A stretch of 64,000 bases of DNA from Chloroflexi bacterium CSP1-4 (GTDB lineage: Bacteria > Chloroflexota > Limnocylindria > Limnocylindrales > CSP1-4). A program made the position numbers and the translations under genes. Where the stretch lies: the NCBI GenBank assembly GCA_001443375.1, contig LDXM01000001.1:121922-185921 (forward strand), in the 5' to 3' direction. Position 1 is the stretch's first letter; every line of letters starts with the position of its first letter. The notes beneath the pieces were generated by a model. That model was given only the letters and a program-made list of their open reading frames with translations. It was not told the DNA's origin and ran no database searches. Below are positions 680-18,637 of this stretch, piece by piece.

Positions 680-781
680 CGTGCCCGGTGCCGGGTGACC
701 ATCGGCGGCCGCGTTCGGGCCGGACGGCCGTCGCCGAACGCGGCTCCCCGGGATCAGGATTCGTGGCGGAGGTGCATCGCC

Positions 782-1135: not shown

Positions 1136-1152
1136 GCGCGCAAAGGCACAGC

Positions 1153-1185
1153 GAAACGGCGCTCCCGGCGGAGGAGCGCCGTTTC
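1153..1185. terminator. bidirectional hairpin terminator between convergent hypothetical gene and ssrA
   Basis: Perfect 13-bp inverted repeat GAAACGGCGCTCC / GGAGCGCCGTTTC with 7-nt loop. Confidence 0.7.
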
Positions 1186-1197
1186 AGAGATGAGTGC

Positions 1198-1571
1198 TGG
1201 TGGAGATGGGGGAGGGTCGAACTCCCCGTCCAGAACCATCAGCCGGAGACCACTACGAGCGTGTCCGATGCTTTGTCGTCGACCGCCCGGGCCACCATCG
1301 GCAGCGTCCCCTGCGGTCCAGCCGCGTGTCCCTGGATCGGGCCTGGTCCCCGGCTACGCGACGCTCGCCGGAGCTGCATCCCCGCTGCATGACGCTTCCA
1401 CAGCCCACGGGGAGGAGGCTGCTTCCACGCTCACCTTACTGCCTAAGCAGCGAGGGCGAGAGCAGGCTGGCGGTTGCCAGTTACTTCGTTTTGCCGCCGG
1501 TTTAACGAGGCCTGACGGCACCTCGGCTCGCGTTCTCCGGGGATCCGGCCCTGTCGAAACCACGCATCCCC
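1198..1571 (-). ncRNA. ssrA: transfer-messenger RNA (tmRNA)
   Basis: Minus strand begins GGGGATGCGTGGTTTCGACAGGG and ends GTTCGACCCTCCCCCATCTCCACCA; 7-bp acceptor stem GGGGATG/CATCTCC; tag reading frame ends ...QPALALAA-TAG (1443..1490); smpB lies nearby. Confidence 0.93.
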
Positions 1572-1961
1572 ATGAGTCCCGGAACCCTGTCCGGTGCCTC
1601 AATCCTACCACCAGGTGGCGAGGCAGCCGATCGGCCTGCTCGCCGACGCAGCCGACGGGCTAGGGCGCGGCCGCGGCCGGTGCTGGTCGTGAGGTGACAG
1701 GGCAGCGCCCCGAGGAAGACGCCGTCGCACCCTCCCGGCGCGTGTTGTTCCCTGGACACCAAGCTTGCGCTCTTCGGCGGTCGTGGCCCGACTGGAGCTG
1801 GCGATCACCGTCGTCCGTGAGCGTTGCGCCGCCGATCCGGCCCGGGCCGGGAGCCGCGAGGGGGCGTCCCGGGTCCCGGAAAGGCGGCGTTGGTGCTCCA
1901 GGAACAACGCCCCAACGGAGCGCAGCCAACGTCGGGGTCCGGCCCCTAGCGCCCCCGGCCC

Positions 1962-2426
1962 CTACCGCCCGCGACGCACGCCCGCCATCTCGCGGTCGAG
2001 GTCGCGCTTCGCGTCCCGCTCGGCTATGGCGCGCCGCTTGTCGTGCAGCTGCTTGCCCCGCGCGAGCCCCAGCTCGACCTTGGCGTGCCCCTTCTCGTCG
2101 ATGTAGAGGCGCAGCGGCACGAGCGTCAGGCCCTTGGACCTGGTCCGCCCCAGCAGCTCGTCGATCTCCTTCCGGTGCAGGAGCAGCTTGCGCGTGCGGC
2201 GCGGCTCGTGGTTGAAGCGGTTGCCCCCGGCGAACGGGGCGATCGTGACGCCGATCAGCCAGGCCTCGCCGCGCTCGATGCGCGCGTAGGACTCCTGGAG
2301 GCTGACCTTCCCGGCGCGGATGCTCTTGATCTCGGTGCCGGTCAGGGCGATGCCCGCCTCGATGTGCTCCTCGATCGTGTATTCGTGATACGCCTTGCGG
2401 TTCAGCGCGGCGGTGTGTTCGCCCAT
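1962..2426 (-). CDS. smpB: SsrA-binding protein SmpB
   Basis: NRKAYHEYTIEEHIEAGIALTGTEIKSIRAGKVSLQESYARI...KGLTLVPLRLYIDEKGHAKVELGLARGKQLHDKR. Confidence 0.95.
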   Translation of the reverse strand: MGEHTAALNRKAYHEYTIEEHIEAGIALTGTEIKSIRAGKVSLQESYARIERGEAWLIGVTIAPFAGGNRFNHEPRRTRKLLLHRKEIDELLGRTRSKGLTLVPLRLYIDEKGHAKVELGLARGKQLHDKRRAIAERDAKRDLDREMAGVRRGR

Positions 2427-2496
2427 CGTGGGGTCCTTCGGCGGCGGGGCTCAGGGTCGGGAGACGGCGGCGCCCGCACTGTACCGGACGCACGAA

Positions 2497-2520
2497 CGCC
2501 GGTCCGTGACCGGACCGGCG
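2497..2520 (-). promoter_or_regulatory. hairpin in the smpB upstream region
   Basis: Perfect 10-bp inverted repeat CGCCGGTCCG-TGAC-CGGACCGGCG. Confidence 0.5.
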
Positions 2521-2554
2521 CTCGAGTACGCGATACCACCCGGCGGGGTTCTGG

Positions 2555-2605
2555 TTAGGCGGATGCCTCCCGCGAGGTGGTGCAGCGCTGCGGACTGTCG
2601 ATCAC
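2555..2605 (-). CDS. candidate 16-aa leader peptide MIDSPQRCTTSREASA upstream of smpB
   Basis: GTG start (2603..2605) preceded by AAAGGAGGTGAT (2611..2622), a near-perfect Shine-Dalgarno with 9 nt between AGGAGG and GTG; stop TAA at 2555..2557. Confidence 0.35.
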   Translation of the reverse strand: MIDSPQRCTTSREASA

Positions 2606-2686
2606 TGCACATCACCTCCTTTCGTCTGGCGCGGACGATAACGGACGGCCCGCGTCGGCGCAAGTGGCGAGAGCGCCGAGGTGCGC

Positions 2687-2847
2687 TGTGCACCGGGTGT
2701 TCGAACCAGCGAACGAGGTCGCGTCCGGTCGCGTTCCTGTGCGCGGGATGTCCAGGAGGGCGGAGGAAACCCCTCGGCCGGCCGGAAGGGGGTCCGCCGG
2801 GCCCGTTCGGGCACCGTTCGTTCGTCCGGTTGAACGCTGGGTGCACA
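2687..2847. repeat. long imperfect inverted repeat, possible structured RNA in the ctpA-smpB intergenic region
   Basis: Left arm 2687..2716 TGTGCACCGGGTGTTCGAACCAGCGAACGA pairs with right arm 2818..2847 TCGTTCGTCCGGTTGAACGCTGGGTGCACA at about 25 positions with small bulges. Confidence 0.5.
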
Positions 2848-2924
2848 ACGAGACCTGCCCGGGCACCCGCCGCCAGGCGAGCCACCGGCACGCTGCCCCG
2901 CCGGCAGCCGACCCCGCCCAGGCG

Positions 2925-4247
2925 CTACGTCTGCGCGCCCGTCAGCAGCTCGATCGCCTTCTCCAGCACCACGTCGGTCGTGGCGCCCTCCGGGACGGTC
3001 ACCGGCACGTCCGGCAGGAGGCCCTGTCCGTGGATCCAGCGCTTGTCGGGGGTCAGCCACTTGGCCACCGACAGCCGGAACCCGCCGGTGTCGTTGGTCA
3101 ACGTCTGCCACTGCTGGATGGTGCCCTTGCCGTAGCTCTTCTCGCCCACGAGCTGTGCACGCCCGGTGTCCTGCAATGCGCCCGCGACGATCTCGCTGGC
3201 GCTGGCCGAGCCGGCGTCGATGAGCACGACGACCTTGATCCGAGGATCGGTCGCGAGGCCGCCGGCGACCGCCTCGTGGACCTTCTGGGTGCCATCGGCG
3301 AATTCCTCCCAGAAGACTGGGCCGCTGGCGATGAACTCGCTGGCGATCTGCTCGGCCGCGTCGACGAAACCGCCCGGGTCGCCTCGCAGGTCGAAGACGA
3401 TACGCTCGAGCCCCTGGGCCACGAGCCCCTCCAGGTGCTCGCGGAAGTCCCCGGCCGCGGAAGCGCTGAAGCCGTCGAGCCGGATGTAGCCGACCGTGCC
3501 CTCGGCGATGACCTCGCTCGAGACGGCTTCGACGTGGATGATCTCGCGCACGATGGCCAACTCGAATGGATCGCCGGCGCCGCGCACGATGGTCAGTCGG
3601 ACCGTCGTCCCCCTGGGGCCCCTGACCAGGCCGACCGTCTCCGCCAGCGTCTTGCCGGTCAGCGACGCGCCGTCGACGGCGACGACCTCGTCGTTCTCCT
3701 GCAGCCCGGCCTTCTTGGCCGGCGACTCACGGATCGTGCGCACGACGACGATGTGGCAGTCGGGCCCGACTTTCTCACAGCCCTCCTCACCCTTGCCGTC
3801 GCGGGTCGTCATGACCGCGCCGATGCCCTCGAACTGGCCAGAGAGGCCGGAGATGGAATCGCGGTACTCCTCGGAGTCGAGGTACTGGCTGAAGGGATCG
3901 CCGATCGCGTCGAACATGCCCTTGATGGCGCCCTCGACGAGCTTCTTGCTGTCGGCGCCGCCGACGTACTGGCCGGCGATGGCGTCGTAGGCGTCCCAGA
4001 AGGGCTCGAAGAGCTGCTGGCGATCGGCCGAGGTGCCCGGCGTGCGCGCCTCCTGGCGGCCGAGCAGGAAGCCGGCTCCGAAGAGGGCCGAGCCACCGAG
4101 GACGGCCACCAGCGCGAGGGCGACGAAGACCGGGCCACGGCCCCTGCGACGGGCGGGCTCGTGGACGTACGGCGGCGCGGGTGAGGGCTCCAGCGCAGGC
4201 TCGAGCGCAGGCTCGAGGATGGGCTCCGTCGGGTCGAGGTCGGTCAT
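2925..4247 (-). CDS. S41 family C-terminal processing peptidase (PDZ domain)
   Basis: N-terminal TM; PDZ-like GIGAVMTTRDG...SPAKKAGLQENDEVVAVDG; FDLRGDPGGFVDAAEQIASEFI; VVLIDAGSASASEIVAGALQDTGRAQLVGEKSYGKGTIQ. Confidence 0.93.
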   Translation of the reverse strand: MTDLDPTEPILEPALEPALEPSPAPPYVHEPARRRGRGPVFVALALVAVLGGSALFGAGFLLGRQEARTPGTSADRQQLFEPFWDAYDAIAGQYVGGADSKKLVEGAIKGMFDAIGDPFSQYLDSEEYRDSISGLSGQFEGIGAVMTTRDGKGEEGCEKVGPDCHIVVVRTIRESPAKKAGLQENDEVVAVDGASLTGKTLAETVGLVRGPRGTTVRLTIVRGAGDPFELAIVREIIHVEAVSSEVIAEGTVGYIRLDGFSASAAGDFREHLEGLVAQGLERIVFDLRGDPGGFVDAAEQIASEFIASGPVFWEEFADGTQKVHEAVAGGLATDPRIKVVVLIDAGSASASEIVAGALQDTGRAQLVGEKSYGKGTIQQWQTLTNDTGGFRLSVAKWLTPDKRWIHGQGLLPDVPVTVPEGATTDVVLEKAIELLTGAQT

Positions 4248-4313
4248 GTGCCAGGGAAGTCTACGCGGGCGTGGCGCAGACGGTCCCGAACGTGGATGAA
4301 GCTTCGCCGGACC

Positions 4314-5204
4314 TCACTTGATGAGGTAGCTGCGCACCGAGATCGTCGCGCCCAGGCCCCCCAGCAGGGCGCCGGCGCCGACCACGAGGAGCACCAGCTG
4401 CTCGCCCAGCCGCTGGTCGAAGCCGACGGGGATCTCGCGCAGGACGGTCGAGCCGAGCTGGCTGATGGCCGGCGCGGCGACGGCGAGGATGCCCAGCGTG
4501 ACGAGCGAGCCGAGCAGTCCCACGAGCAGCCCCTCGAGGACGAACGGCCAGCGGATGAACGCGTCCGAGGCGCCCACGAGGCGCATGATCTCGATCTCGT
4601 CGGCCCGCGCCATGACCGCCATGCGGATGGTGTTGACGACGATGAACAGGACGGTCAGGGCCACCATCAGCATGACGCCCAGGCCGACCGTGCGCAGCAC
4701 GCCGGTGATGGCCACCAGCGCGTCGACCACCCGCTGCGTCTCGAGGACCTCTGCCACGACGCCCTTCGGCGCCTTCAGGATCTCCACGACCTGGCCGTAC
4801 TGGCGTGGATCCTTCAGCTTCACGTTCAGGCTGGCGGGGATGGGGTTGGTGCCGGTCAGACCGGTCAGATCGGGGCGGCCCTGCGCCTCCTGCTGGGCGC
4901 GCCAATCGGCCAGCGCTTCTTCCTTGCTGGTGTGGGTGACGGTCGCCACCTCCGGGAGGGCCGCCACCTGCTCCTGCAGCCGGGCCACCCGCTCGGGCGC
5001 CACGCCGTCGTTGAGGAACGCCTGCACCTCGACCTTCGACTCCACGAACTGGAGGCCGGCCTCCAGCCCCGAGAGCACGAGCACGAGTCCCGACAGGAGC
5101 ACGAGCATGAGGACCATGGTCACGGTCGCGGCGAGGCTCATGACGCGGTTGCGCCAGAAGCCCTGGGCGGCGCGGCGGACGGAGAAGGCCAGGAAGGAGA
5201 GCAT
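4314..5204 (-). CDS. ftsX: cell division permease-like protein FtsX
   Basis: N-terminal FSVRRAAQGFWRNRVMSLAATVTM, extracellular domain, MARADEIEIMRLVGASDAFIRWPFVLEGLLVGLLGS; adjacent to ftsE. Confidence 0.92.
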   Translation of the reverse strand: MLSFLAFSVRRAAQGFWRNRVMSLAATVTMVLMLVLLSGLVLVLSGLEAGLQFVESKVEVQAFLNDGVAPERVARLQEQVAALPEVATVTHTSKEEALADWRAQQEAQGRPDLTGLTGTNPIPASLNVKLKDPRQYGQVVEILKAPKGVVAEVLETQRVVDALVAITGVLRTVGLGVMLMVALTVLFIVVNTIRMAVMARADEIEIMRLVGASDAFIRWPFVLEGLLVGLLGSLVTLGILAVAAPAISQLGSTVLREIPVGFDQRLGEQLVLLVVGAGALLGGLGATISVRSYLIK

Positions 5205-5208
5205 CGGG

Positions 5209-6050
5209 TCAGTACTGGCGGTGGTAGCCGCCGACCTCGTCGCGCACGATGCGGCCCTCCTCGAGCGCCACGACGCGCTTGCGCAGGGCGGTCACGACCT
5301 CGGCGTTATGCGTGGCCATGAGCACGGTCGTGCCCAGCTCGTTGATGCGCAGCAGGAGCTGGATGATCTCCCAGCTGATGAGGGGATCAAGGTTCCCCGT
5401 GGGCTCGTCGGCGATGATGATGCGCGGTCCGTGGACCATGGCGCGGGCGATGGCGGTCCGCTGCTGCTCCCCGCCGGAGAGCTGGTTCGGGCGCTGCTCG
5501 GCCTGGGCGGACAGGCCCACGAGGGCCAACGCGCGCTCCACAGCCGGCCCCACCTCGCGGCGCGGCGTGCCCGTCACCTCGAGCGCGAAGCCGACGTTCT
5601 CGTGCACGGTCTTGCTGGGCAGCAGCTTGAAGTCCTGGAAGATGATGCCGATCTCGCGGCGGAGGTGCGGCACGTGGCGGCGGCGCAGGCGGGCGAGGTC
5701 GCGACCGGCCACCAGGACGGTGCCGGTCGTGGCCAGCTCGTCGCGGATGAGCAGCTTGATGAGCGTGCTCTTGCCCGCGCCGGACGGGCCGACGAGGAAG
5801 ATGAAGTCGCCCTCGGGCACGACGAGATCGACCTCGATGAGGGCGCGCTTCCCGTTGGGGTAGACCTTGGTCACGTCGTGCAGGGCGATCGCCGCATGCC
5901 TGAGGTCCGGGATCGTGGCGTCGGCGCCGGGCCGCGCGAGGGCGGGATCCGCGGGCCGGTCCGGCGTAAGGGCCGACGGCGCGGGCGCGACGGCCTCGAG
6001 GGCGCCGGCGCGGGGCCGGAGGCTGGCCCGGAGGTGCGAGAAGGTCACAT
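5209..6050 (-). CDS. ftsE: cell division ATP-binding protein FtsE (N-terminus uncertain)
   Basis: VTKVYPNGKRALIEVDLVVPEGDFIFLVGPSGAGKSTLIKLLI...LSGGEQQRTAIARAMVHGPRIIIADEPTGNLD; candidate GTG start near 6050. Confidence 0.88.
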
Positions 6051-6249
6051 ACGGCTCCGCGACTGCCGGGACCGACGCGACCGGGGCGTCGGTGAGCCGG
6101 CCGCGGCTCGGCACGCGGGCACGGCGAGCACGACCACGACGCCGGGGAGCGTAGCACAGGGGCTCGTGAGCCCTCTGCCACCGCCCGCTCGCGCGTCCCC
6201 GCCTGTGCGCTACGCTCGGGCACACGTCGGGCACACGAAGGAGGAGTGG

Positions 6250-7158
6250 ATGGCACCCACCATCGAGCAGGTCGTCGCCGCGATCCCGGAATGGCTTGGG
6301 CGCCACGTCGACGTCGCGGAGATCCCGGGCGGCCTGACAAACCGCAACTACCGCCTGAGCGTGGACGGCGTGCCGATGTTCGTACGGATCCCCGGGCAGG
6401 GGACCGAGCTGCTGGCCGTCGACCGGGCCAACGAGCTCCACAACACGCGAGCGGCGGCGGAGGCGGGGGTGGGCGCCCGCGTCCTGCACCACCTGCCGGA
6501 ATGGGACGTGATGGTCCTCGAGTGGCTACCCGGCCGGACGATGTCGAATGCCGCCTTCGCCGAGCCCGGCATGCCCGCCCGCATCGCCGCGGCGCTTCGG
6601 CGCCTGCACGCCGGCCCACGCTTCCGGGACGACTTCGACATGTTCCGCCTGACGGAGTTCTACCTGCGCGTCGTGGACGAGCACGCGGTGCCCATCCCGG
6701 CGGGCTACCGCGACCGGATCCCGCTCCTGCCGCGCATCGAGGCCGCCCTGGCCGTCGGGCCGCTCCCGACCGTGCCCTGCCACAACGATCTCCTGGCCGA
6801 GAACTACCTCGACGACGGCGAGCGGTTGTGGATCGTCGACTACGAGTACAGCGGCAACGATGACCCGACCTTCGAGCTGGGCAACACCTGCCAGGAGCTC
6901 GGTTTCGACCGGGCCCGGACCATCGAGCTGTGCACCGCCTACTTCGGCCGGGCGACGCCGGCACTGCTGGCGCGGATGCACCTCCAGATGATCATGTCGG
7001 ACATGGGCTGGACGCTATGGGCGGCCATCCAGGCGCGGATCTCGACGATCGACTACGACTTCTGGGGCTGGGCCGAGGAGCGCTGGGGACGAGCCGCGGC
7101 CAGGCTCGACGGGCCCGAGCTCGCAGGCTGGCTGCGCGAGGTCGGTTCGGGGGCCTGA
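6250..7158 (+). CDS. choline/ethanolamine kinase-like phosphotransferase (LicA/APH fold)
   Basis: C-terminal part of ORF 4465..7158; ATG at 6250 after AAGGAGG; GGLTNRNYRL, VPCHNDLLAENYLDDGERLWIVDYEYSGNDDPTFELGN. Confidence 0.88.
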   Translation: MAPTIEQVVAAIPEWLGRHVDVAEIPGGLTNRNYRLSVDGVPMFVRIPGQGTELLAVDRANELHNTRAAAEAGVGARVLHHLPEWDVMVLEWLPGRTMSNAAFAEPGMPARIAAALRRLHAGPRFRDDFDMFRLTEFYLRVVDEHAVPIPAGYRDRIPLLPRIEAALAVGPLPTVPCHNDLLAENYLDDGERLWIVDYEYSGNDDPTFELGNTCQELGFDRARTIELCTAYFGRATPALLARMHLQMIMSDMGWTLWAAIQARISTIDYDFWGWAEERWGRAAARLDGPELAGWLREVGSGA

Positions 7159-7164
7159 AACGGC

Positions 7165-7194
7165 GACGGCCCGGGTCTCCGGGCCCGGGCCGTC
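7165..7194. terminator. bidirectional hairpin terminator
   Basis: GACGGCCCGGG-tctccggg-CCCGGGCCGTC, perfect 11-bp stem between convergent genes. Confidence 0.7.
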
Positions 7195-7224
7195 GATGGC
7201 TTGCTGCCGGGCGATCCCGACGGA

Positions 7225-8883
7225 TCACTCCGGCGGGATCTCCTTGAACGCGTATTCCACGTTGATGCCGCCCGAGCGACGCACCATCTTCGTGACGATG
7301 TACCAGAGGGCGGAGAAGACGAGGATCCCGCCAACCACCGTGTAGGCCAGCTGGCTGGTCAGGCCGAGCTGCGAGTTGGTCAGGAAGAGGACCAGGAAGA
7401 TCGTCCCGGCGATGAAGCCGAGTGCGCCGACGATCGTCACCGTGGGGATGCCCGCGATGGTGAACTTCGAGCCCGGCGAGGCCTCGTAGACGCCCTTGGC
7501 CCGGAAGGGCAGCAGGGCGCCGGCCAGTGCGGTGGCGACGAAGACGTAGCCACAGGCGAAGGTCACGCCCAGCGTGAGCGACGTCCAGGAGGTCGTCGAC
7601 CCATCGGCGTTGGTGACCGCGAAGGTGTTGAACAGCCAGATCACCGGGATGCTGGCCAGGAAGTAGATGACGTGGGCGTTGACCGGAGTGTGGAAGCGGT
7701 CGCTGACGCGGCTGACCAGCTCCGGCAGGACGCGGTCGAGCGACATCGCGACCATCACGCGGGTCATGCCGATATAGCAGTTGTGCACGATCTGATGGCT
7801 GTTGAGGATGAAGCCCACCGAGATCAGCAGGATCACGAGTGGGCTGGCCGAGATGGCGATGGCCAGGATGTTCGGCCACAGGTAGAAGCCGCTGAGCGTA
7901 GCCTCCCCGACCAGCGACCAGTAGCCGGCACCGGCCACGTACAGGAACTCCGTCCCGACGGCGCGCTCGAGGACGAAGGCGAGCGTGGCGAGCAGGATCC
8001 CGGTCACGACGAGCGCGCCGACGATGATCATGGCCTGGTTGCGGAACGAGCGGGCGTCCTTGATCTCGCCGTTCTGCTGCGTGCTGTAGGTCGCCCACTG
8101 GAGCGATGTCCAGGCGATCGGTGCGATGAGCAGCGTGGCCAGCAGGCTGAAGGGCGGATTCGTGTCCACGCCCGCCGCCGTGGTCGCCGCCACAGCGTCC
8201 TGGTAAAACGTGGCGGATCCGCCGATGGAGGTCGAGAACGCGTTGAGTGCGCCGGGCACGTCCGCCGCGTTCGTCGTGAAGAGCACGACGAGCATCGTCC
8301 CGAATGCGAGCAGGGTGGCGATCCACATCACCCGCTGGAGCCTCACGTAGTTCTTGAAGCCGGACGCGAGGATGAGCAGGGCCAGGAGCGCGTTGGCGAT
8401 GCTGGTCACGATGATCCCGTTGGCCGTCGTGAACCAGGTCGCGAGCTCGATCATGCCGGCGTTGCCCAGCGTGGCGCCGAGGCCCAGGAAGAGCGGTGCC
8501 AACCCCAGGTAGGCGAGCAGCCAGCCCGAGAGCGCCACCCACTGGAGGATCCAGATCACGAAGCCGGACATGACCAGCGTGAAGGCGATGCCGCCGCCCA
8601 GCACGCGGCTCTGGAAGACATAGTCGCCGCCCGAGCGCGGCAGCGCCGTCGAGAGCCATACGTACGCCAGCGCGATGGGGATCTCCAGCACCACCGCCAG
8701 CAGGATCCCCCACACGAGCTGGCCGCCCGGCAAGGCGCCCGGCGCCCACAGGTACGTCCAGGGGAAGATCAACCCCATCGTCAGGACGTTGTACACGAAG
8801 GCCGAGGACGGGGACATGACCCGCACCAGACCCGACGATTTCCGGACGAAGACCTCCGGTGCCGCCGCTGTCGCAGTCGCCAT
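7225..8883 (-). CDS. APC superfamily amino acid/amine permease
   Basis: ~12 TM helices; PRSGGDYVFQSRVLGGGIAFTLVMSGFV; SDRFHTPVNAHVIYFLASIPV; GAFT..CGYVFVATALAGALLPFRAKGVYEASPG. Confidence 0.85.
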   Translation of the reverse strand: MATATAAAPEVFVRKSSGLVRVMSPSSAFVYNVLTMGLIFPWTYLWAPGALPGGQLVWGILLAVVLEIPIALAYVWLSTALPRSGGDYVFQSRVLGGGIAFTLVMSGFVIWILQWVALSGWLLAYLGLAPLFLGLGATLGNAGMIELATWFTTANGIIVTSIANALLALLILASGFKNYVRLQRVMWIATLLAFGTMLVVLFTTNAADVPGALNAFSTSIGGSATFYQDAVAATTAAGVDTNPPFSLLATLLIAPIAWTSLQWATYSTQQNGEIKDARSFRNQAMIIVGALVVTGILLATLAFVLERAVGTEFLYVAGAGYWSLVGEATLSGFYLWPNILAIAISASPLVILLISVGFILNSHQIVHNCYIGMTRVMVAMSLDRVLPELVSRVSDRFHTPVNAHVIYFLASIPVIWLFNTFAVTNADGSTTSWTSLTLGVTFACGYVFVATALAGALLPFRAKGVYEASPGSKFTIAGIPTVTIVGALGFIAGTIFLVLFLTNSQLGLTSQLAYTVVGGILVFSALWYIVTKMVRRSGGINVEYAFKEIPPE

Positions 8884-8940
8884 CCGATTTCACCTCGTAG
8901 CAGGGGGACGCGAGCCGTCATTGGGGGCGGCTCGATGGTG

Positions 8941-8960
8941 GGCGGCCGCGCGCGGCCGCC
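8941..8960. terminator. perfect 20-bp GC palindrome, putative terminator of metallophosphoesterase gene
   Basis: GGCGGCCGCGCGCGGCCGCC lies downstream of the 9039 stop on the minus strand. Confidence 0.45.
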
Positions 8961-9038
8961 GCTCAGTTCCAGCCTCCGATGGCACCTCCCTTCCTCATGT
9001 CGCCACAGGTCCGCGTGGGCTCGCGGGCGGTGGCCGCC

Positions 9039-10034
9039 TCAGCCGGCCGTCATCTGGTAGCTCCGGACCTTCCCACCCGCGATGGTCAGCAGGCAGCCCC
9101 TCAGGATGCCCTCGCCGTACTCGCTGCCGGGGTTGATGCAGAGCGTCCGGCCGAGCCTGGCCGCCGCCTGGGACTCGTGGATGTGGCCATGAAGACCGAG
9201 CATGGGCTGGTAGCGCTCGATGGCCGCGCGGACCGACTGGCTGCCAGCGCCGTACAGCACCGGCTGGCCGCCGGTGACGATCTGCGAGGGTGGATCGGTC
9301 GACCAGTCGAGCTGGGGACACGTGTCGAGCGTCGAATCCCTGGGCGGAGCGTGGAAGTTGAAGATGACGTGGCCGTAGTCGCCGAAGCCACCGGCGACCC
9401 GCTCGATCTTCTCGGCCAGCTCGGGTTCCGGTGCCTCGCGGGGCGTCTTCCAGGGTGTCGGGTTGACGTAGGGCATGCTGACCATCAGGTGCTCATCGTC
9501 GAGCGGGACGACCCGGTCCTCACAGGCCACGAACGCCCTCGTGTCGGGCCGCTGCATGGCCGCCATGACCTCTGGGACGTCGTCGTTGCCGCCCGTCGCA
9601 CAGCAGCGGATGCCGGTCCCGGCCAAGCGCGTCTCGGTGAGGTCGATCCAGCGCGTCAGCCGCTCGATGGCGAGGTCGTGGAACAGGTGCACGACCGCCG
9701 AGGGATCGTCGCGCACCGCGCGGTACTCGTCTTCGTCCATGGTGGCGTGATAGAAACCCAGGTCGGCGATGCGCTCGCGCATCGCCTCCACCTCCGACGC
9801 CGTCTCGAGGTGCTCGACCCGACTGTGGATCGTGGCCCGGTGACGTCCGCTGGCCTCGCGGATGATGGGGATCGCCAGCTTGCCCATGACGTCGCCGCCC
9901 ATGACCAGGACGTCGGCACCGTAGAACTTCCCGGCGTTGAGGAACTTCCGCCACGTGCGCTCCGACCCGTGGACGTCCGTGGCGTAGAAGATCCGCGTGC
10001 CCCTGGTCGCGCGGTCGCGCCGGAAGAGCGGCAT
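9039..10034 (-). CDS. metallophosphoesterase family protein
   Basis: ATG at 10034 (MPLFRRDRATRGTRIFYATDVHGSERTW...); metal-binding motifs ATDVHGSE, VMGGDVMG, TGGNDD, LGLHGHIHESQAAARLGRTLCINPGSEYGEG. Confidence 0.85.
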   Translation of the reverse strand: MPLFRRDRATRGTRIFYATDVHGSERTWRKFLNAGKFYGADVLVMGGDVMGKLAIPIIREASGRHRATIHSRVEHLETASEVEAMRERIADLGFYHATMDEDEYRAVRDDPSAVVHLFHDLAIERLTRWIDLTETRLAGTGIRCCATGGNDDVPEVMAAMQRPDTRAFVACEDRVVPLDDEHLMVSMPYVNPTPWKTPREAPEPELAEKIERVAGGFGDYGHVIFNFHAPPRDSTLDTCPQLDWSTDPPSQIVTGGQPVLYGAGSQSVRAAIERYQPMLGLHGHIHESQAAARLGRTLCINPGSEYGEGILRGCLLTIAGGKVRSYQMTAG

Positions 10035-10047
10035 CGAGCGACCCGCC

Positions 10048-12477
10048 TCAGCCGCGCATCCGGAAGCCACGGGGGTCGTACATGACATCCGCTGCGATGA
10101 CCGCCGGGACTTGCTCGTCGAACACGTCCACCAGGAGCTGGGCTCCCTCCTCGAGTCGAGACGGAAGATACACGTAGCCGATGGTCCGCGATACGGTGGA
10201 TCCGTAGGCCACGCTCCGCAGGCGCCCAACGACGCGGCCTCCCGACCGGACCGCCTCCCCGCCGTAGACAGGCACGTAGTCCGCGCCGCCGACGAGCACC
10301 GTCCGGAGCCGCTGGCTCGGACCGTCCGGCTCCCGCTCGAGCCGGGCGCGCAGTGCATCCCGACCGACGAAGGGACCCTTGTCGAGCGCGACGAATGCCC
10401 CCAGGCCCGCCTCGAACGGTGTCTCCAGCATCGTCAGGTCCGTACCGTAGTAGCGGTAGCCCTTCTCCATGCGCAACCCGTCGAGCGCCCGGTAGCCGAA
10501 CGGCCGCAGGTCCACCCCACGCCCGGCGGCCGCGAGTCGGTCCCAGGCCTGGATCGCCCAGGCAGCGTCGACGTAGAGCTCCCAGCCCAGCTCGCCGGCG
10601 TAGCTGATGCGCACCGCCTGGACGGGCGCGCCCGCGATGCGGATCCCGCGCGCTTGCCGGAGCGGGATCGCCCCATCGCTCACGTCGTCGTCGGTGGCGG
10701 CGGCGAGGACGTCACGCGCCCGCGGCCCCCAGAGGCCGAGGCAGGCGAGGTCGCCACTCACGTCGTGCAGCTCGATCGCCGCGTCGTCGTCGGCGACGTG
10801 CCAGCGCAGCCAGGCGAGGTCGCCGGCGAGGTAGCCCGCTCCGGTCACGACGCGGAAGCGGTCTTCGGCCAGCCTCGTGATCGTGACGTCCGCGACCATG
10901 CCTCCGCGCTCGTCGAGGAACTGGCTGTACGTCACGCTGCCGACGGGTCGGTCGACGTCATTCGCTGCGACGCGCTGGAGGAGGGCCAGGGCGCCCGGCC
11001 CCGCTACGGAGATCTTGCCGAACGAGCTCAGGTCGATGAGGCCTGCGCGCTCGCGAACGGCGACGGCCTCTTCCTCCACCCGCTCGAGCCACGGTGGTCG
11101 GGTGAAGCCGTACGCACGTTGATCGCGGCCGCTGCGACGCCAGGCGCGGCCCGGCTCGAGATGGTCCGCCCGCTCCCAGCCGGCCTTCGTTCCGAACACC
11201 GCGCCGAGCTCCTGGAGCCGACCATGCAGCGGTCCTGGCCGGCGCGGCCGCCCGGCCTCGTCCGCGTCGTGCGGGTAGCGCAGCCGGTAGTAGTCCGCGT
11301 AGGTCTCCCTCGCCAGCGCCGCCGCGTAGGTCGGATCACGATGCACCTCGCCGAAGCGCCAGGCCCGGTATGGCCCGATGTCGACCCCCGGTTCCCCGGC
11401 CGTTATCCAGCCGGCGAGCGCCCGCCCGATACCGCCTCCGCCGCCGAACCCGTTGAGCGACAGCCCCGCCGCGAGCCAGAAGCCACGGGCTCCCGGCAGC
11501 GGCCCGAGCAGCGGATTCGCGTCCGGCGTCATCGCATCCGGATGGCAGACGAGGCGGATCACCTCTGCGTCGGCCAGGAACGGGAAGCGACGGACGGCGC
11601 CGGCCATGAGCGGGGCGAAACGCTCGAAGTCGGGCGGCAGCGACCGCGCGGCGTGATCCCAGGGGACGCCGTCGACCCAGCGAGACTGCGGTTCGGTCTC
11701 GTAGCCGCCGAAGAGCATGCCGCCCTGCTCGCTCTTGCCGTAGACGAGGTTGTCCGGGTCGCGGAAGCACGGCATGTCGTGTGGAAGCTCGTGGCCGGGC
11801 ACGGCGCGCAGCGCGATGTGCTGATGGTCGACCGGCGTCGAGGGCACGAACGCCCCGACCATCGCCGCGACCTGCGGCGCCCAGATCCCGGCTGCATCAA
11901 CGACGTGCTCGGCGGCGATGGGGCCGTTGTCGGTCAGGACGCGGGTCACCTCGCGGCGCGGCGAGAGCTCGATGCCCGTGACGCGCACGCCCGTGCGGAT
12001 CCGTGCCCCGAGGGCCCGGGCGGCCTCCGCCAGCGCGTGCGTCGCCGTGTGCGGGTCCAGGTGGCCGTCGCCGGGCAGATGGATCGCGCCGTGGAGCGAA
12101 TCGGACGAGATCGCCGGCATCAGGCGCAGCGCCTCCTGCGCGGACACGACCTCCACGTCCAGGCCGATGCCCCGGGCACGGCTCGCGCCGCGTTCGAGCT
12201 CGCGGAGCTGGTCGTGACTCGATGCCAGCCGGAGGCTGCCTACCCGCTGGAACACGCCGAGCCGTTCGTAGAGCTCCACGCTGTAGCGGCGGAACCGCAT
12301 CATGGTCGAGGAGGGATTGAAGACGGTGACGAGGCCGGCGGCGTGGCAGGTGGAGCCGGCGGTCAGCTGCGCCTTCTCCACGAGCATGACGTCTGTCCAG
12401 CCGGCAAGGGCGAGGTGGTAGGCGACGCTGCAGCCGGTGATCCCGCCGCCGATGACGACGACCCGCGCCTGTTCCAC
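10048..12477 (-). CDS. FAD-dependent oxidoreductase fused to GcvT-like aminomethyltransferase domain (dimethylglycine/sarcosine dehydrogenase-like), paralog 1
   Basis: N-terminal VVVIGGGITGCSVAYHLALAG (FAD); C-terminal GcvT-like SFGKISVAGPGALALLQRVAANDVDRPVGSVTYSQFLDERGGMVADVTITRLAEDRF. Confidence 0.88.
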   Translation of the reverse strand: MEQARVVVIGGGITGCSVAYHLALAGWTDVMLVEKAQLTAGSTCHAAGLVTVFNPSSTMMRFRRYSVELYERLGVFQRVGSLRLASSHDQLRELERGASRARGIGLDVEVVSAQEALRLMPAISSDSLHGAIHLPGDGHLDPHTATHALAEAARALGARIRTGVRVTGIELSPRREVTRVLTDNGPIAAEHVVDAAGIWAPQVAAMVGAFVPSTPVDHQHIALRAVPGHELPHDMPCFRDPDNLVYGKSEQGGMLFGGYETEPQSRWVDGVPWDHAARSLPPDFERFAPLMAGAVRRFPFLADAEVIRLVCHPDAMTPDANPLLGPLPGARGFWLAAGLSLNGFGGGGGIGRALAGWITAGEPGVDIGPYRAWRFGEVHRDPTYAAALARETYADYYRLRYPHDADEAGRPRRPGPLHGRLQELGAVFGTKAGWERADHLEPGRAWRRSGRDQRAYGFTRPPWLERVEEEAVAVRERAGLIDLSSFGKISVAGPGALALLQRVAANDVDRPVGSVTYSQFLDERGGMVADVTITRLAEDRFRVVTGAGYLAGDLAWLRWHVADDDAAIELHDVSGDLACLGLWGPRARDVLAAATDDDVSDGAIPLRQARGIRIAGAPVQAVRISYAGELGWELYVDAAWAIQAWDRLAAAGRGVDLRPFGYRALDGLRMEKGYRYYGTDLTMLETPFEAGLGAFVALDKGPFVGRDALRARLEREPDGPSQRLRTVLVGGADYVPVYGGEAVRSGGRVVGRLRSVAYGSTVSRTIGYVYLPSRLEEGAQLLVDVFDEQVPAVIAADVMYDPRGFRMRG

Positions 12478-12607
12478 GCCCGTCCGACCCTCCCGCTGAA
12501 CGCCCGCGACGCCGACGGTCGCTATGGGACGCTACGGTACGGCGTGGCGCGGCACGGCTTCAAGCGTCGGCGCGCCAGGCGACCGGGTCCGCCTACAATC
12601 ACCAGCC

Positions 12608-13393
12608 ATGGCCACCCCGCGCGACCAGAATGCGATCGTCATCGACCGCGCCGTGCTCGAAGCGGAGGTCGAGCGGCTCGTCACCGCCGCTGATGAGGCT
12701 GGTCTCACGGTGCGCGTGCTCGGTTCCCTGGGTGTCTCGATCCACTGCCCGGATGCTGCCGCGCTCCTGCCGAGCTTTCAACGGACCTACGCGGACATCG
12801 ACTTCGCCGGCTATCGCCGCCAGGCGAAGGGCCTCGCCACGCTCCTCGCCGGACTGGGTTACGTCGACGGCCGCGAGGTGTTCATCACGTCCGAGGGCCG
12901 CCGATCGATCTTCGACGCTCCCCGCAGCGGGATCCACCTGGACGTCTTCTACGACCGGCTCGAGTTCTGCCACGTGATCCCGCTGAACGGCCGTCTCGAG
13001 GCGGATCGCCCGACGATCCCTCTCGCCGAGCTGTTGCTGTCGAAGCTCCAGATCGTCCGGATCAACGAGAAAGACATCGTCGACACCGCCCTGCTGCTCC
13101 TCGACCATCCGCTGGCCGATGGCGACGTGGACAGCATCGACGTCGGCCGCGCCGCGCGCCTGTGCGCGGCGGAGTGGGGCCTGTGGCGGACGGTCACGAT
13201 GAACCTCGAGAAGGTCACCGCGCTCGTCTCGGGGTACCCCCAGCTCCGTGACGACCAGCGCGACCGTGTCCGGGCTGCCGTCGCTGCGCTGAAGGCCCGT
13301 CTCGACGAGGAACCCAAGCCGATGGCCTGGCGGATGCGGGCACGGGTCGGCGACCGACGCCAGTGGTGGACCGACGTGGATGAGGTGCGCTAG
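12608..13393 (+). CDS. nucleotidyltransferase-like protein of unknown function
   Basis: ATG at 12608; VLGSLGVSIHC...ADIDFAGY...GIHLDVFYD resembles GS-DxD-D of minimal NTases. Confidence 0.55.
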   Translation: MATPRDQNAIVIDRAVLEAEVERLVTAADEAGLTVRVLGSLGVSIHCPDAAALLPSFQRTYADIDFAGYRRQAKGLATLLAGLGYVDGREVFITSEGRRSIFDAPRSGIHLDVFYDRLEFCHVIPLNGRLEADRPTIPLAELLLSKLQIVRINEKDIVDTALLLLDHPLADGDVDSIDVGRAARLCAAEWGLWRTVTMNLEKVTALVSGYPQLRDDQRDRVRAAVAALKARLDEEPKPMAWRMRARVGDRRQWWTDVDEVR

Positions 13394-14367
13394 ACGCCGC
13401 TCCGGGAGACATCCTGCAGTGCCTGCTCGAACGCCGGGGTCGAGGCGTTCGCCAGCAACCGGCTGAGATGCCTGTCGGCGTAGGCCACGAAATCCACATC
13501 GAGCGTGCTGATGGCTTGCTGCAACACGCCCCACATCGCCTCGCGGAAGTCCGACACGACGCGCATGAGGCGCAGCCGGGCCAGGCGCTCGCGGCGCGCC
13601 TCGCCCTCGTAGGCGGCGAGGAGTGCGGCGTCCTCCGCCGCCGAGAGGCCGTGGTTGACGCTGAAGTTGCCGAGGTCGAAGAACGGGTCGCCCATGCCCG
13701 CGTACTCCCAGTCGACGATGCGCACGCGTGTGCCGTCGTCGATGAAGTTCGCGTTGAGCAGGTCGTTGTGGCAGGGTCGCATCTCGACCGGGTTGCGCAG
13801 GAAGGCGACCTCGATGCGGCGGATCCGCTCGTGCGCCGGCTCGTATGCGTCGGGGATGGGCACGCCGCGCGCGAGCGCCAGGGCACGGTACGCCTCGCCG
13901 ATGCGGTAGGGCACGAAGATGCCGGGGATGGCCGGCCCCTCGTGGATGAGGCGGATCGAGTCGGCCACGCGGCGGATCGTCTCCGGCTCATGGACCGCCT
14001 CGTCGGAGATGCCGCTGCCGACGATGAAGCGCGTGACGAGGTAGCCCTCGGGCCGGATGTAGGCCGTCACCTCCGGACCGACCCCTACCCCGGCCGCGGC
14101 TACCGTGGCGGCGTGCTCGACCTCGCGGCTGATGCCCAGCAGGTGCGTGTCGTTGCCGCCCAGGCGGATGACGAACGTCTCGCCGCCTCGCGCGGCCGCG
14201 GCAAGTCCTCCGTCCGCGTCGACGCGGAAGTTGCGGTTGGTGATTCCCCCGCTGATCGGCGTCAGGACGAGATCGCGACCGGCCAGCTCCGGCACGCGCT
14301 GCATGGCCGCGACAAGGGTCTCGCGCAGCTCGCCGCCGAGCGGTTCCTCGGGTCCCGGGGTGGTCAT
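13390..14367 (-). CDS. choline/ethanolamine kinase-like phosphotransferase, second copy
   Basis: GGITNRNFRV, MRPCHNDLLNANFIDDGTRVRIVDWEYAGMGDPFFDLGNFSVNHGL. Confidence 0.88.
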   Translation of the reverse strand: MTTPGPEEPLGGELRETLVAAMQRVPELAGRDLVLTPISGGITNRNFRVDADGGLAAAARGGETFVIRLGGNDTHLLGISREVEHAATVAAAGVGVGPEVTAYIRPEGYLVTRFIVGSGISDEAVHEPETIRRVADSIRLIHEGPAIPGIFVPYRIGEAYRALALARGVPIPDAYEPAHERIRRIEVAFLRNPVEMRPCHNDLLNANFIDDGTRVRIVDWEYAGMGDPFFDLGNFSVNHGLSAAEDAALLAAYEGEARRERLARLRLMRVVSDFREAMWGVLQQAISTLDVDFVAYADRHLSRLLANASTPAFEQALQDVSRSGV

Positions 14368-15227
14368 CGGCGTGCGTCGCCGTCTCGGGGGCCCGCCAGC
14401 CCCGCCAGCAGGGCGTGGTGCAGGAGGCCGTTGGAGGCCATCATGGTGGGCTCGTGGATGGAGCGCCGGCCGGCGAAGTCGGTGACCACGCCTCCCGCCT
14501 CCTCGATGAGGATGAGCGGCGCGGCCAGGTCCCAGGCGTTCATGCCGACCTCGATCATCGCCTCGGCGGCGCCCTCAGCCACGAGAGCGTAACCCCAGAA
14601 GTCGCCGAAGCCGCGGTCGCGCCAGGCGCGGGCGAGCAGGCCGCGGAAGCCGGGCGCCCAGGGCTCGATGTCGGTGGGCGAGCTGTACACGAGCTGCGCG
14701 TCGGCGAGGGCGGCCACACGCGAGACGTGGATGCGCCGCTGCTCCCCCGGCCCCAGCCCGGCCCCGCCCACGGCCCAGGCGCCGCCGCCGCGCCAGGCCA
14801 GCCAGCGCTCGCGCAGCGCGGGGGCGCTGATGACGCCGACCTGCATCTCGCCGTCGCGCTCGACGCCGAGCAGCGTGCCGAAGAGGGGCACGCCGCGCAT
14901 GAAGTTGTGGGTTCCGTCGATGGGGTCGACATACCAGCGCACGGACGCCTCGCCGGCCTCCTCACCCTCCTCCTCGCCGATCAGGCCGTGGTCGGGGTGG
15001 ACGGCCAGGATGCGCTCGCGGATGCGTCGCTCGATGGCCTTGTCGGCCTGGGTCACGAAGGACCGGTCGGGCTTGGCCGTGATCTCGAGGTCGCGCCGGA
15101 AGTGGGCCAGGGCGAGGGCGTCGGCCTCGTCGCAGAGCGCCAGCGCGAGGTCCAGCCAGCCGCGCAGCTCGGCCTCCGTCCCGAGCCGCAGCGAGGCGCT
15201 CCATTCGGGACCGTAGGGGGCACTCAC
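14364..15227 (-). CDS. inositol monophosphatase family protein
   Basis: IGEEEGEE...VRWYVDPIDGTHNFMRGVPLFGTLLG...MNAWDLAAPLILIEEAGGVVTDFAG; GTG start overlaps upstream TGA. Confidence 0.9.
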   Translation of the reverse strand: MSAPYGPEWSASLRLGTEAELRGWLDLALALCDEADALALAHFRRDLEITAKPDRSFVTQADKAIERRIRERILAVHPDHGLIGEEEGEEAGEASVRWYVDPIDGTHNFMRGVPLFGTLLGVERDGEMQVGVISAPALRERWLAWRGGGAWAVGGAGLGPGEQRRIHVSRVAALADAQLVYSSPTDIEPWAPGFRGLLARAWRDRGFGDFWGYALVAEGAAEAMIEVGMNAWDLAAPLILIEEAGGVVTDFAGRRSIHEPTMMASNGLLHHALLAGLAGPRDGDARR

Positions 15228-17650
15228 GAGCGGATCCGCTCCCCGGCCGGGTCCCACAGCGGCTCGCGCACGACCTCGGCGCCGACCCAGGCGCCGAAGA
15301 CGTCGATCTCGCCACGCGTGCCGGGGACGGCCCGCTCAGGCGGCAGGTAGGCGTAGGCGATGCTCTTCGCCACGGCATGGCCGTAGCCCCCCGAGGTGAC
15401 CCGGCCCACGATCGCCCCACCGATGCGCACGGGCTCGTTGCCCAGCGTGACCGAGCGCGGGTCGTCGAGCACGAGGCAGGCCAGGCGCCTGCGGGGCCCG
15501 GCCGCCTTCCGCGCCAGGAGCGCCTCCCGGCCGATGAAGTCGGTGCCCTTGTCGAGCCTGACCGCGAACCCCAGGCCGGCCTCGTAGGGCGTCTCCTCGG
15601 GGGTGATGTCGCTCGACCAGACGCGGTAGCCCTTCTCCAGACGCAGCGCGTCGATGGCTCGGTACCCGCCGGCCAGCATGCCCTGCGCCCGTCCGGCCTC
15701 CCAGAGGGTCTGCCACAGCCCGCGTCCGTATTCGCTGGGCGGATACAGCTCCCAGCCCAACTCGCCCACGTACGTGACGCGCAGCGCCAGCACCGGGACG
15801 TGCGCCAGCGTGATCTCGCGCGCCGTCAGGTAGGGGAAGGCCTCGTTCGACAGGTCATCCCGGGTGAGCGGCGCGAGGATGTCGCGCGCCCGCGGCCCCC
15901 AGATGCCGAGGCAGGCGCGGGACGAGGTGACGTCGCGCACCCGGACGGAGCCGTCCGCGGGCAGGTGGGCCCGGATCCAGCCCAGGTCGTGGTTGCCGAA
16001 GGCTGTCCCGGTGACGATGAGGAAGAGCTCCTCGGCCAGGCGCGTGACGGTGAAGTCGCACTCGATGCCGCCGCGCGTGTTGAGCATCTGCGTGTAGGTG
16101 ATGGAGCCGACCGGGCGGTCGACGTCGTTGGCGCACAGTCGCTGCAGGAAGGCGAGGGCGCCCGCCCCCGAGATCTCGATCTTGGCGAAGCTCGACTCGT
16201 CGAAGAGGGCGGCCGCCTGCCGCGTCGCCAGGGCCTCCGCGCCGATGGCCGGCGACCAGTGCTGGCCCGCCCAGCCGTGCGGGCGCAGCGCCTCGTCGCC
16301 CAGGGCGGCGTTGGGCTCGAACCAGTTCGGCCGCTCCCAGCCCGACTTCTCGCCGAAGACCGCACCGAGCGCGCGCAACTCCTCGTAGGCCGGCGAGAGG
16401 CGCAGCGGCCGGCCAGCCTGCCGCTCCTCGTTGGGGTAGTGGATGTCGTAGTAGGTGGCGTACGTCTCGAACGTCCGGGCCAGCGTGTACGCCTGGGAGC
16501 GGTACTGCGCGCCGAAGCGGCGGATGTCCATCTTCCAGAGGTCCAGCTCCGGCTCCCCCCCCACGATCCACTGGGCCATCTGCTGGCCGATGCCCCCGGC
16601 GCCGGCGATGCCATGGGCGCAGAAGCCGGCGGCCACGAAGAAGCCGCGCACCTCCGACTCGCCCAGGATGAACTCGTTGTCCGGCGTGAACGCCTCCGGG
16701 CCGTTGATGAGCCGCGTCACCTCCGCGTCGGCGATGGCCGGCACGCGCCGCACGGCGCCATCCATGATCGCCGCGAAGCGCGGCCAGTCCGGGGCCAGCA
16801 GCCGGCCGTTGAAGTCGGGCGGCACGCCATCGAGCGACCAGGGCGCAGGGTCGCGCTCGTAGCCGCCCATGCACAGGCCGCCCACCTCCTCACGGAAGTA
16901 GACCAGGTTGTCCGGGTCGCGCATGGTCGGGATGTCCGGCCGCACGCCCGGGATGGGCTTGGTCAGCAGGTACTGGTGGGCCATGGGGATGATGGGCACG
17001 GTCACGCCGGCCAGGCGGCCGATCTCGGGCGCGAACATGCCGCCGGCGTTGACCACTACGTCCGTCCGGATCTCACCGCGGTCGGTGACCACGCCGCGCA
17101 CGCGGCCGCCTTCGACGCTGATCCCCGTGACGCGGTGCTCGGTCAGGATGCGCGCGCCGCGCGCCTTCGCTCCCGCGGCCAGGGCGAAGGCGAGGTTCGA
17201 GGGGTCGAGCCAGCCGTCGGTGGGCAGGAAGACGGCGCCCAGCACGCCCTCGGGGTCGAAGAGGGGGAAGAGATCGTGCGCCTCCCGCGTGGAGACCAGC
17301 TCCAAGGGCAGGCCGAAGGTGCGCGCCCAGCCGACCTGGCGCCGCAGCTCCTCGAGGCGCGCCGGGGAGCTGGCCAGGCGCAGCGAGCCGACCTCGTGCC
17401 AGGAGACGTCCACGCCGGTCTCCGCGGTCAGGCGCCGGTACAGGCCGGCGCCGTACATCATCATCCGCGTGAGGGTCGTCGAGCTGCGCAGCTGCCCCAC
17501 CAGGCCGGCCGAATGGAAGGTGGACCCGGACGTGAGCCCGGCGCGGTCCACGAGCACGACGTCATGCCAGCCCAGCTCGGCGAGGTGATAGGCGATGCTG
17601 GTGCCGCCCACGCCGCCCCCGATCACGACCGCCTGTGCCTGCTCGACCAT
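15224..17650 (-). CDS. FAD-dependent oxidoreductase fused to GcvT-like domain (dimethylglycine/sarcosine dehydrogenase-like), paralog 2
   Basis: AVVIGGGVGGTSIAYHLAELGWHDVVLVDRAGLTSGSTFHSAGLVG; C-terminal SFAKIEISGAGALAFLQRLCANDVDRPVGSITYTQMLNTRGGIECDFTVTRLAEELF. Confidence 0.9.
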   Translation of the reverse strand: MVEQAQAVVIGGGVGGTSIAYHLAELGWHDVVLVDRAGLTSGSTFHSAGLVGQLRSSTTLTRMMMYGAGLYRRLTAETGVDVSWHEVGSLRLASSPARLEELRRQVGWARTFGLPLELVSTREAHDLFPLFDPEGVLGAVFLPTDGWLDPSNLAFALAAGAKARGARILTEHRVTGISVEGGRVRGVVTDRGEIRTDVVVNAGGMFAPEIGRLAGVTVPIIPMAHQYLLTKPIPGVRPDIPTMRDPDNLVYFREEVGGLCMGGYERDPAPWSLDGVPPDFNGRLLAPDWPRFAAIMDGAVRRVPAIADAEVTRLINGPEAFTPDNEFILGESEVRGFFVAAGFCAHGIAGAGGIGQQMAQWIVGGEPELDLWKMDIRRFGAQYRSQAYTLARTFETYATYYDIHYPNEERQAGRPLRLSPAYEELRALGAVFGEKSGWERPNWFEPNAALGDEALRPHGWAGQHWSPAIGAEALATRQAAALFDESSFAKIEISGAGALAFLQRLCANDVDRPVGSITYTQMLNTRGGIECDFTVTRLAEELFLIVTGTAFGNHDLGWIRAHLPADGSVRVRDVTSSRACLGIWGPRARDILAPLTRDDLSNEAFPYLTAREITLAHVPVLALRVTYVGELGWELYPPSEYGRGLWQTLWEAGRAQGMLAGGYRAIDALRLEKGYRVWSSDITPEETPYEAGLGFAVRLDKGTDFIGREALLARKAAGPRRRLACLVLDDPRSVTLGNEPVRIGGAIVGRVTSGGYGHAVAKSIAYAYLPPERAVPGTRGEIDVFGAWVGAEVVREPLWDPAGERIRS

Positions 17651-17698: not shown

Positions 17699-18637
17699 CT
17701 ACGGTAGCGCGAAGCTCCGCATGAGGTAGCGCTCCGCCGCGAGCATCGGCTCCGTCGCCGAGAGGATGGCCGGCGATCCATCGAGGCGCAGGCCGGCGCG
17801 CAGGAGCGCGGGCAGCGCTGCCGACGGGCCGGGCACGACGAGCTGCCAGCTGCCGGCGGGCTGGACCGTGGTCATGAGGTGGGCGACGACGCCCTCCAGC
17901 ATGGATCCGTCGCGTACCACGACGGGCCCCAGGCGGCCGCTGGGCTGGGCATAGCCGTAGCCGATCACCGCCCCACTGCGCCGGTGTCGGTAGAGCCAGC
18001 CGCGCCGCCCCTCGTCGCGGTCGTCGCGGTGGTCGACGGGCCGGCGGTGGCCGACCGCGCCCAGGTCCAGCTCGTCGAGCGCGTCAGCCAGGACGATGCC
18101 CTCACCGGCGGCCTCGAGCGTCTCGAAGGCGGCCGCCGCGAGCGCGTCCGGCAGCGGCGCCAGCGCGCCCGGTCGGGGCGTGCCGGTCACGAGGTGGACG
18201 GGCACCTGCGGCACGAGCCCGTAGCGCGCGTAGAGACCCGTCGAAACCGGTTGGATGGCCTCGACGCAGGTGGCCAGGACGCCGCCTTGAGCGCGCCAGG
18301 CGTCCGGTCCGCCGCTGGGGAACGTGCGCTCCAGGAGACGACGCCCCAGTCCCGCCGCCTGGAAGGCCGGCTCCACGAAGAGGAAGGCGAGGAACCAGAG
18401 CCGCTCGCGCTCGACGGCGATGCCGAAAGCGACGGTCCTTCCGTCCGATTCGGCCAGCCAGGCGCCGGCCGGATGGCTGGCCGCGAGCCGGCCGAAGAGC
18501 CGCTCCAGGGCCCCCTCGTTGCGCGGCCAGCGCCCCTCGCGGCGGCGATCCTGAAGCTCCTCCATGGCCGCGTAGAAGACGGCCGTGCAGGCCGCCAGGT
18601 CGTCAGCGCCGATCGGCCGCAGGGTGGGCTCGGGCAC
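17699..18637 (-). CDS. GNAT family N-acetyltransferase
   Basis: LRPIGADDLAACTAVFY...AFLFVEPAFQAAGLGRRLLERTF. Confidence 0.75.
   Translation of the reverse strand: MPEPTLRPIGADDLAACTAVFYAAMEELQDRRREGRWPRNEGALERLFGRLAASHPAGAWLAESDGRTVAFGIAVERERLWFLAFLFVEPAFQAAGLGRRLLERTFPSGGPDAWRAQGGVLATCVEAIQPVSTGLYARYGLVPQVPVHLVTGTPRPGALAPLPDALAAAAFETLEAAGEGIVLADALDELDLGAVGHRRPVDHRDDRDEGRRGWLYRHRRSGAVIGYGYAQPSGRLGPVVVRDGSMLEGVVAHLMTTVQPAGSWQLVVPGPSAALPALLRAGLRLDGSPAILSATEPMLAAERYLMRSFALP

Follow-up and report, generated by a model that had tools for sequence, protein, structure and literature searches.

What does a bacterium gain from two small-molecule kinases of the LicA family and two proteins that fuse a flavin adenine dinucleotide (FAD)-dependent oxidoreductase to a GcvT-type domain, all encoded between ftsEX and prfB? 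This question is raised by positions 6,250 to 17,650 of a 64,000-nucleotide stretch of the Chloroflexi bacterium CSP1-4 genome (contig LDXM01000001.1, positions 121,922 to 185,921; hereafter the window), which comes from an assembly of 2.59 Mb that is 92% complete. We read this block, with an even chance of being right, as a portable cassette for the catabolism of N-methylated amino alcohols, consisting of two kinase/N-demethylase pairs (F-H and A-D) and a permease. The genes are lettered A to H along the window:

6250..7158, + strand: A, kinase of the LicA/choline-kinase family with a choline box (W-type), partner of D; Pfam Choline_kinase, 79.3 bits
7225..8883, - strand: B, APC-family permease, candidate importer; Pfam AA_permease_2
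9039..10034, - strand: C, calcineurin-like metallophosphoesterase with invariant metal-binding motifs; nearly always adjoins B
10048..12477, - strand: D, predicted FAD-GcvT demethylase, partner of kinase A; Pfam DAO, FAO_M, GCV_T, GCV_T_C
12608..13393, + strand: E, nucleotidyltransferase-fold protein with an invariant GS and three Asp residues; predicted fold match
13390..14367, - strand: F, kinase of the LicA family with a rewired pocket (RE-type), partner of H; Pfam APH/Choline_kinase
14364..15257, - strand: G, HisN-type protein of the inositol monophosphatase (IMPase) family; HisN 239.2 bits, cut-off 275.15
15224..17650, - strand: H, predicted FAD-GcvT demethylase, partner of kinase F; Pfam DAO, FAO_M, GCV_T, GCV_T_C
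17699-18637: GNAT-family protein between H and prfB, found at the same site in relatives without the island

All eight lettered genes, which had been named in an original prediction made from the window alone, are genuine open frames lying about where they had been placed. Their families are confirmed by Pfam and NCBIfam with the exception of C and E, for which Pfam gave no match. The four-domain architecture of D and H scores above the Pfam cut-offs in both proteins. A and E are encoded on the opposite strand to the other six genes, H overlaps G by 34 bases and G overlaps F by 4 bases, whilst D and C are separated by 13 bases.

Pairing of kinases and FAD-GcvT proteins across genomes

Orthologues of kinase F and of H are present in the same 16 of 61 related genomes (Fisher p 5e-15, phylogeny ignored), with F orthologues counted at 65% identity or more and H orthologues in these 16 genomes being 72-82% identical. 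Kinase A and D are likewise shared by the same 8 of the 61 genomes, nested within the 16 (Fisher p 3e-10, again ignoring phylogeny). The carriers are spread over 12 of 33 genera, and the same cluster occurs in named near relatives, which are Chloroflexi and Candidatus Limnocylindrales metagenome genomes.

The association extends well beyond this family. A scan of 84,980 species genomes yielded 570 relatives of F, from which 80 loci were kept. In 48 of these the sequence reaches 3.5 kb or more to either side of F; F has an H orthologue within 1 kb in 34 of the 48 and somewhere in the locus in 41. Taxa in which F stands beside H include Chloroflexota, Candidatus Dormiibacterota, Actinomycetota and Acidobacteriota, and A is found beside a D-type gene also in Anaerolineae and one unclassified bacterium. 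The grouping of these genes is not due to chance. The test of neighbourhood conservation put forward with the original prediction comes out in its favour, in that kinase, FAD-GcvT protein and permease occur together across genomes and phyla and the neighbours are conserved.

Counterparts are also found in Alphaproteobacteria, on plasmid records annotated by others. Ruegeria carries a DeoR regulator, a betaine-type ATP-binding cassette (ABC) transporter, a kinase, a FAD-GcvT protein and an IMPase; Salipiger has these same parts, its kinase being RE-type, and behind the FAD-GcvT protein come electron-transferring flavoprotein (ETF) beta, a FAD-binding protein, FolD and PurU. Nitratireductor combines an RE-type kinase and a FAD-GcvT protein with EutH. 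In Rhizobium rosettiformans, a betaine/choline-type ABC transporter is followed by an RE-type kinase, two FAD-GcvT proteins and a W-type kinase, an arrangement that mirrors F-H and D-A, and in Agrobacterium and Shinella two related kinases are accompanied by a HisN-type gene and EutBC. These recurring partners (betaine/choline ABC transporters, EutH, the ETF-FolD-PurU set and, beside related kinases, EutBC) fit the methyl-amine or amino-alcohol chemistry that had been proposed for the locus.

Active sites and ancestry of the paired enzymes

The kinases were compared with LicA (PMC4364537), whose numbering is used here. Both retain the catalytic residues T29, D176, N181, D194 and E196, in keeping with the fold and catalytic residues of LicA (4R77, 4R78, 4R7B) and of the uncharacterised Mesorhizobium kinase 3DXQ. 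Kinase A keeps Y197, W251 and W254 of the choline box as well as the rim residue E213, with Y268 substituted by W. In contrast to LicA, kinase F carries E213N and W251E and lacks a choline box, and its homologues share an altered amine pocket: W251E and the loss of E213 are seen in 96 of 96, and I250R in 92 of 96. The pocket of kinase F is not of the choline type, and on this point the original prediction of two LicA-type kinases for choline/ethanolamine-like alcohols is not supported. Read from the sequence, the Glu in the F pocket suggests an ammonium group bearing N-H, whereas the aromatic box in A suggests a fully alkylated ammonium. The predicted model of kinase F is mediocre (pLDDT 70) and was used for fold matching only.

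Kinase F and the alphaproteobacterial RE-type kinases form one group in the tree (support 99/95). Convergence on the RE signature is unsupported, as these kinases still form one group (97/90) when the three signature columns are masked, and the trees place a single origin of the signature across phyla. Local duplication of both families, as had been suggested, is ruled out by the trees; A and F are 36% identical and D and H 47%, with each protein placed in an old clade of its own.

The best NCBIfam model for both kinases is GntI, the pre-guanitoxin N-oxide kinase (NF041256), with 287.8 bits for F and 184.3 bits for A, and a class-F relative at another locus (L115) reaches 328.9 bits. All scores are nevertheless below the cut-off of 357, and the context here looks catabolic, with no guanitoxin genes seen in it; a guanitoxin-like role was dropped. 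PDB entry 3DXQ, from Mesorhizobium loti, groups with W-type kinases of Rhizobium rosettiformans and Shinella sp. HZN7 (L193 and L194) that have FAD-GcvT genes close by.

For the FAD-GcvT proteins, residues are given in the numbering of the Arthrobacter dimethylglycine oxidase AgDMGO (1PJ5), against the background of work on dimethylglycine dehydrogenase (DMGDH; PMC5082570) and established knowledge of AgDMGO. D and H both keep H48, the covalent-FAD histidine, the His225/Tyr259 dyad and the folate-site residues Asp552, Tyr651 and Glu658, which they have in common with the rat (4P9S), human (5L46) and Arthrobacter enzymes together with the FAD and GcvT architecture. The residues tested for FAD, tetrahydrofolate and adenosine triphosphate binding, whose loss would have refuted the original prediction, are all retained. 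Unlike these characterised enzymes, H and D are strictly paired with kinases and form two separate clades of their own in the tree, to which orthology with characterised DMGDH or DMGO does not extend.

It is a different FAD-GcvT protein of this genome, on contig C3, that groups with AgDMGO (100/100). Its locus (L187; G000:C3:31000-50000, 226-17338) also encodes a trimethylamine/MttB-like methyltransferase, a RamA-like activator, a methyltetrahydrofolate methyltransferase-like protein, a corrinoid protein, ETF-like subunits and a ProU-like ABC transporter, the names other than MttB and FAD-GcvT being assigned by eye from the sequence. It is probably a corrinoid glycine betaine demethylation locus. 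Such MttB-type systems with DMGDH resemble the route considered here in passing successive N-methyl groups into one-carbon carriers, but the window cluster is without corrinoid genes, MttB or a ProU transporter and has kinases instead. With those genes on contig C3 beside their own FAD-GcvT protein, the window cluster is unlikely to serve ordinary glycine betaine or dimethylglycine degradation. The genome holds six FAD-GcvT fusions in total, besides separate GcvT-domain proteins, and two of them are tandem genes at a contig end (L185; G000:C10, 14637-19376).

A proposed phosphorylate-then-demethylate route and its rivals

Soil and sea hold plenty of methylated amino alcohols, choline and dimethylethanolamine among them, which originate in membrane lipids. 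In the textbook account, bacteria begin by oxidising the alcohol group, taking choline to betaine and on to dimethylglycine. In the cassette proposed here, the hydroxyl would instead be phosphorylated. An importer, in this genome the APC permease B, would take up the compound, and a LicA-type kinase would phosphorylate the hydroxyl of the N-methylated amino alcohol. The partner FAD-GcvT protein would then oxidise an N-methyl group at its histidyl-linked FAD, with electrons leaving via ETF, and its GcvT half would pass the one-carbon unit to tetrahydrofolate as 5,10-methylene-tetrahydrofolate. Kinase A, with its full choline box, would serve fully alkylated ammonium compounds, and kinase F, whose pocket carries Glu and usually Arg, less methylated ones with N-H. 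If choline itself enters, another enzyme must take off the first methyl, because a FAD-GcvT protein should not demethylate a quaternary amine.

More tentatively, and with the balance somewhat against it, the pairs may represent a widespread route in at least five phyla in which RE-type and choline-box kinases each feed a dedicated FAD-GcvT protein. All of the enzymes come from known families, but neither the paired cassette nor the RE-kinase subfamily appears to have been described; no description of the cluster was found in the open-access literature searched, with most subscription journals outside its scope. If the proposal is true, phosphorylation followed by demethylation would offer one-carbon metabolism a second point of entry. 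Functions could then be given to hundreds of genes now annotated as 'phosphotransferase' or 'FAD-dependent oxidoreductase', and the orphan structure 3DXQ would gain a clue to its role. With its exact pairing and two-pocket signature, the proposal can be tested directly.

Several observations weigh against the amino-alcohol reading. Some RE-type kinases lack an H orthologue (L073, L150, L151 and L154). In several groups, the pair is surrounded by a KbaY-type aldolase, a HisC-type aminotransferase and a HAD phosphatase, or by GlnS, PuuD and ALDH, and these other enzymes leave room for other substrates. The FAD-GcvT partners in Alphaproteobacteria fall outside the H clade, which means that inheritance of the demethylase partner is not strict. 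As some RE-type kinases stand alone and the alphaproteobacterial demethylases come from another clade, the coupling of kinase and FAD-GcvT protein is strong but not absolute. Characterised DMGDH-type enzymes, moreover, act on carboxylates (dimethylglycine, sarcosine) and not on amino-alcohol phosphates.

Known FAD-GcvT members use N-methyl amino acids (PMC5082570), and this favours a substrate that is itself a hydroxylated N-methyl amino acid, N-methylserine-like or a betaine-like hydroxy acid. Its hydroxyl would be phosphorylated, the FAD-GcvT protein would demethylate it while keeping the carboxylate contact of DMGDH, and the Arg of the RE signature, which occupies LicA position 250 in nearly all F homologues, would bind the carboxylate. 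Betaine/proline-type ABC transporters beside the pair in Alphaproteobacteria would suit such a compound, but EutH adjoining the pair and EutBC adjoining related kinases speak for amino alcohols free of a carboxylate, and kinase A has a choline-type box without the extra Arg. We regard this alternative as unlikely, though still a live rival. The Eut link is itself confined to distant relatives: the resemblance to ethanolamine utilisation lies in EutH by one kinase/FAD-GcvT pair and EutBC by related kinase pairs, whereas no EutBC, EutH or other eut gene was found by Pfam or NCBIfam among the window cluster genes.

A separation of the two chemistries is comparably improbable. In that case one operon would hold two independent activities: the FAD-GcvT proteins would act on an unphosphorylated N-methyl amino acid (dimethylglycine, sarcosine or another), the kinases on a different molecule such as choline or ethanolamine for headgroup salvage, and the kinase product would not be the demethylase substrate. 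It is favoured by catalytic and tetrahydrofolate-site residues that are those of DMGDH and DMGO, and it accommodates the RE-type kinases that occur without a FAD-GcvT protein. It sits poorly with the exact co-occurrence and one-to-one pairing of F with H and A with D, with the recurrence of the pairing around a different FAD-GcvT clade in Alphaproteobacteria, and with a genome that already has a betaine-type locus with its own DMGO-like enzyme.

Less probable still is a polyol-amine pathway, in which an N-methyl-2-amino-polyol would be phosphorylated and demethylated to a primary amine, which transamination would turn into a ketol phosphate for cleavage by a class II aldolase. The suggestion comes from about a dozen Anaerolineae loci, where the kinase and FAD-GcvT genes are followed or flanked by those for a KbaY-type aldolase, a HisC-type aminotransferase, a HAD phosphatase and a DeoR regulator. 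The window has none of these additional genes, however, and the HisC homologue, at 273.1 against a cut-off of 276.55, is near true HisC in score. The 469-residue class II aldolase that lies beside the cluster in relatives was also rejected as a part of the pathway, as it is a housekeeping gene present in 54 of the 61 genomes regardless of the cluster.

Insertion site, accessory genes and solitary kinases

The placement of the island between ftsEX and prfB is exact, and relatives have ftsX-ftsE-GNAT-prfB at this site without it. The distance from ftsX to prfB is 13.4 kb here versus 1.8 to 2.9 kb in 17 other genomes of the family, the sample being those with both genes on one contig. Read directly, genome G010 has the order ftsX-ftsE-GNAT-prfB, and G006 and G008 have ftsX-ftsE-IMPase-GNAT-prfB. 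As the block is missing from the ftsX-ftsE-(IMPase)-GNAT-prfB region of close relatives, it is an insertion; its point of entry is a site that G occupies in such relatives, with A to F now on one side of G and H on the other. The GNAT protein is part of the site and not of the cluster, since it is present there in relatives without the island.

In two other genomes, G003 and G017, the order is (G)-H-A-B-C-D-E-F, a circular permutation of the A-B-C-D-E-F-G-H seen here, and in G003 the cluster lies beside the housekeeping aldolase. In CSP1-4, the cluster is missing from that place, and the aldolase directly adjoins the aminotransferase and spermidine/putrescine-type ABC genes. The permuted order and the separate aldolase site therefore indicate that the block moves as a unit. 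The permutation (window 6250-17650 compared with L074 and L068) suggests movement via a tandem or circular intermediate.

G was claimed as a member of the cluster, which is not borne out, as genomes of the family carry it with or without the cluster. In relatives without the kinase/FAD-GcvT pair it is found beside the aldolase or, as in G006 and G008, between ftsE and prfB. Although it falls below the HisN cut-off (TIGR02067), it is a resident gene of this bacterial family, probably HisN acting in histidine biosynthesis, and only co-located with the cluster; no HisJ scored above its cut-off in this genome, other phosphatase types being outside that search. Kinases of this sort do have an IMPase gene with them in Ruegeria, Salipiger, Agrobacterium and Shinella. 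A 'phosphorylate, demethylate, dephosphorylate' scheme with G as the cluster-specific phosphatase was dropped for the window, where G is resident.

B, the candidate importer, adjoins C, E and the kinase and FAD-GcvT genes in Anaerolineae and one unclassified bacterium, at 54-82% identity; most relatives have a different APC permease upstream of F, which is absent from this genome. The D-x-H, GD, GND, H and GHIH motifs of C are invariant in 12 homologues. E is conserved at 50-71% beside B and C across Chloroflexota, with its GS, D-x-D and third Asp invariant in homologues. Fold matching of its predicted model picks out nucleotidyltransferases, ANT(2'')-Ia and JHP933 among them (probability 1.00, template modelling score about 0.4).

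Two kinds of RE-type kinase setting without H are seen elsewhere. At L073 (G016:C39, 7868-8845), a lone kinase with all signature residues lies among iscS-like, mnmA-like and alaS-like genes, with no FAD-GcvT gene nearby. At L150, L151 and L154, the kinase is followed by a KbaY-type aldolase, a HisC-type aminotransferase, a HAD phosphatase and a peptide-type ABC transporter, a set that is possibly a related pathway for another amino alcohol.

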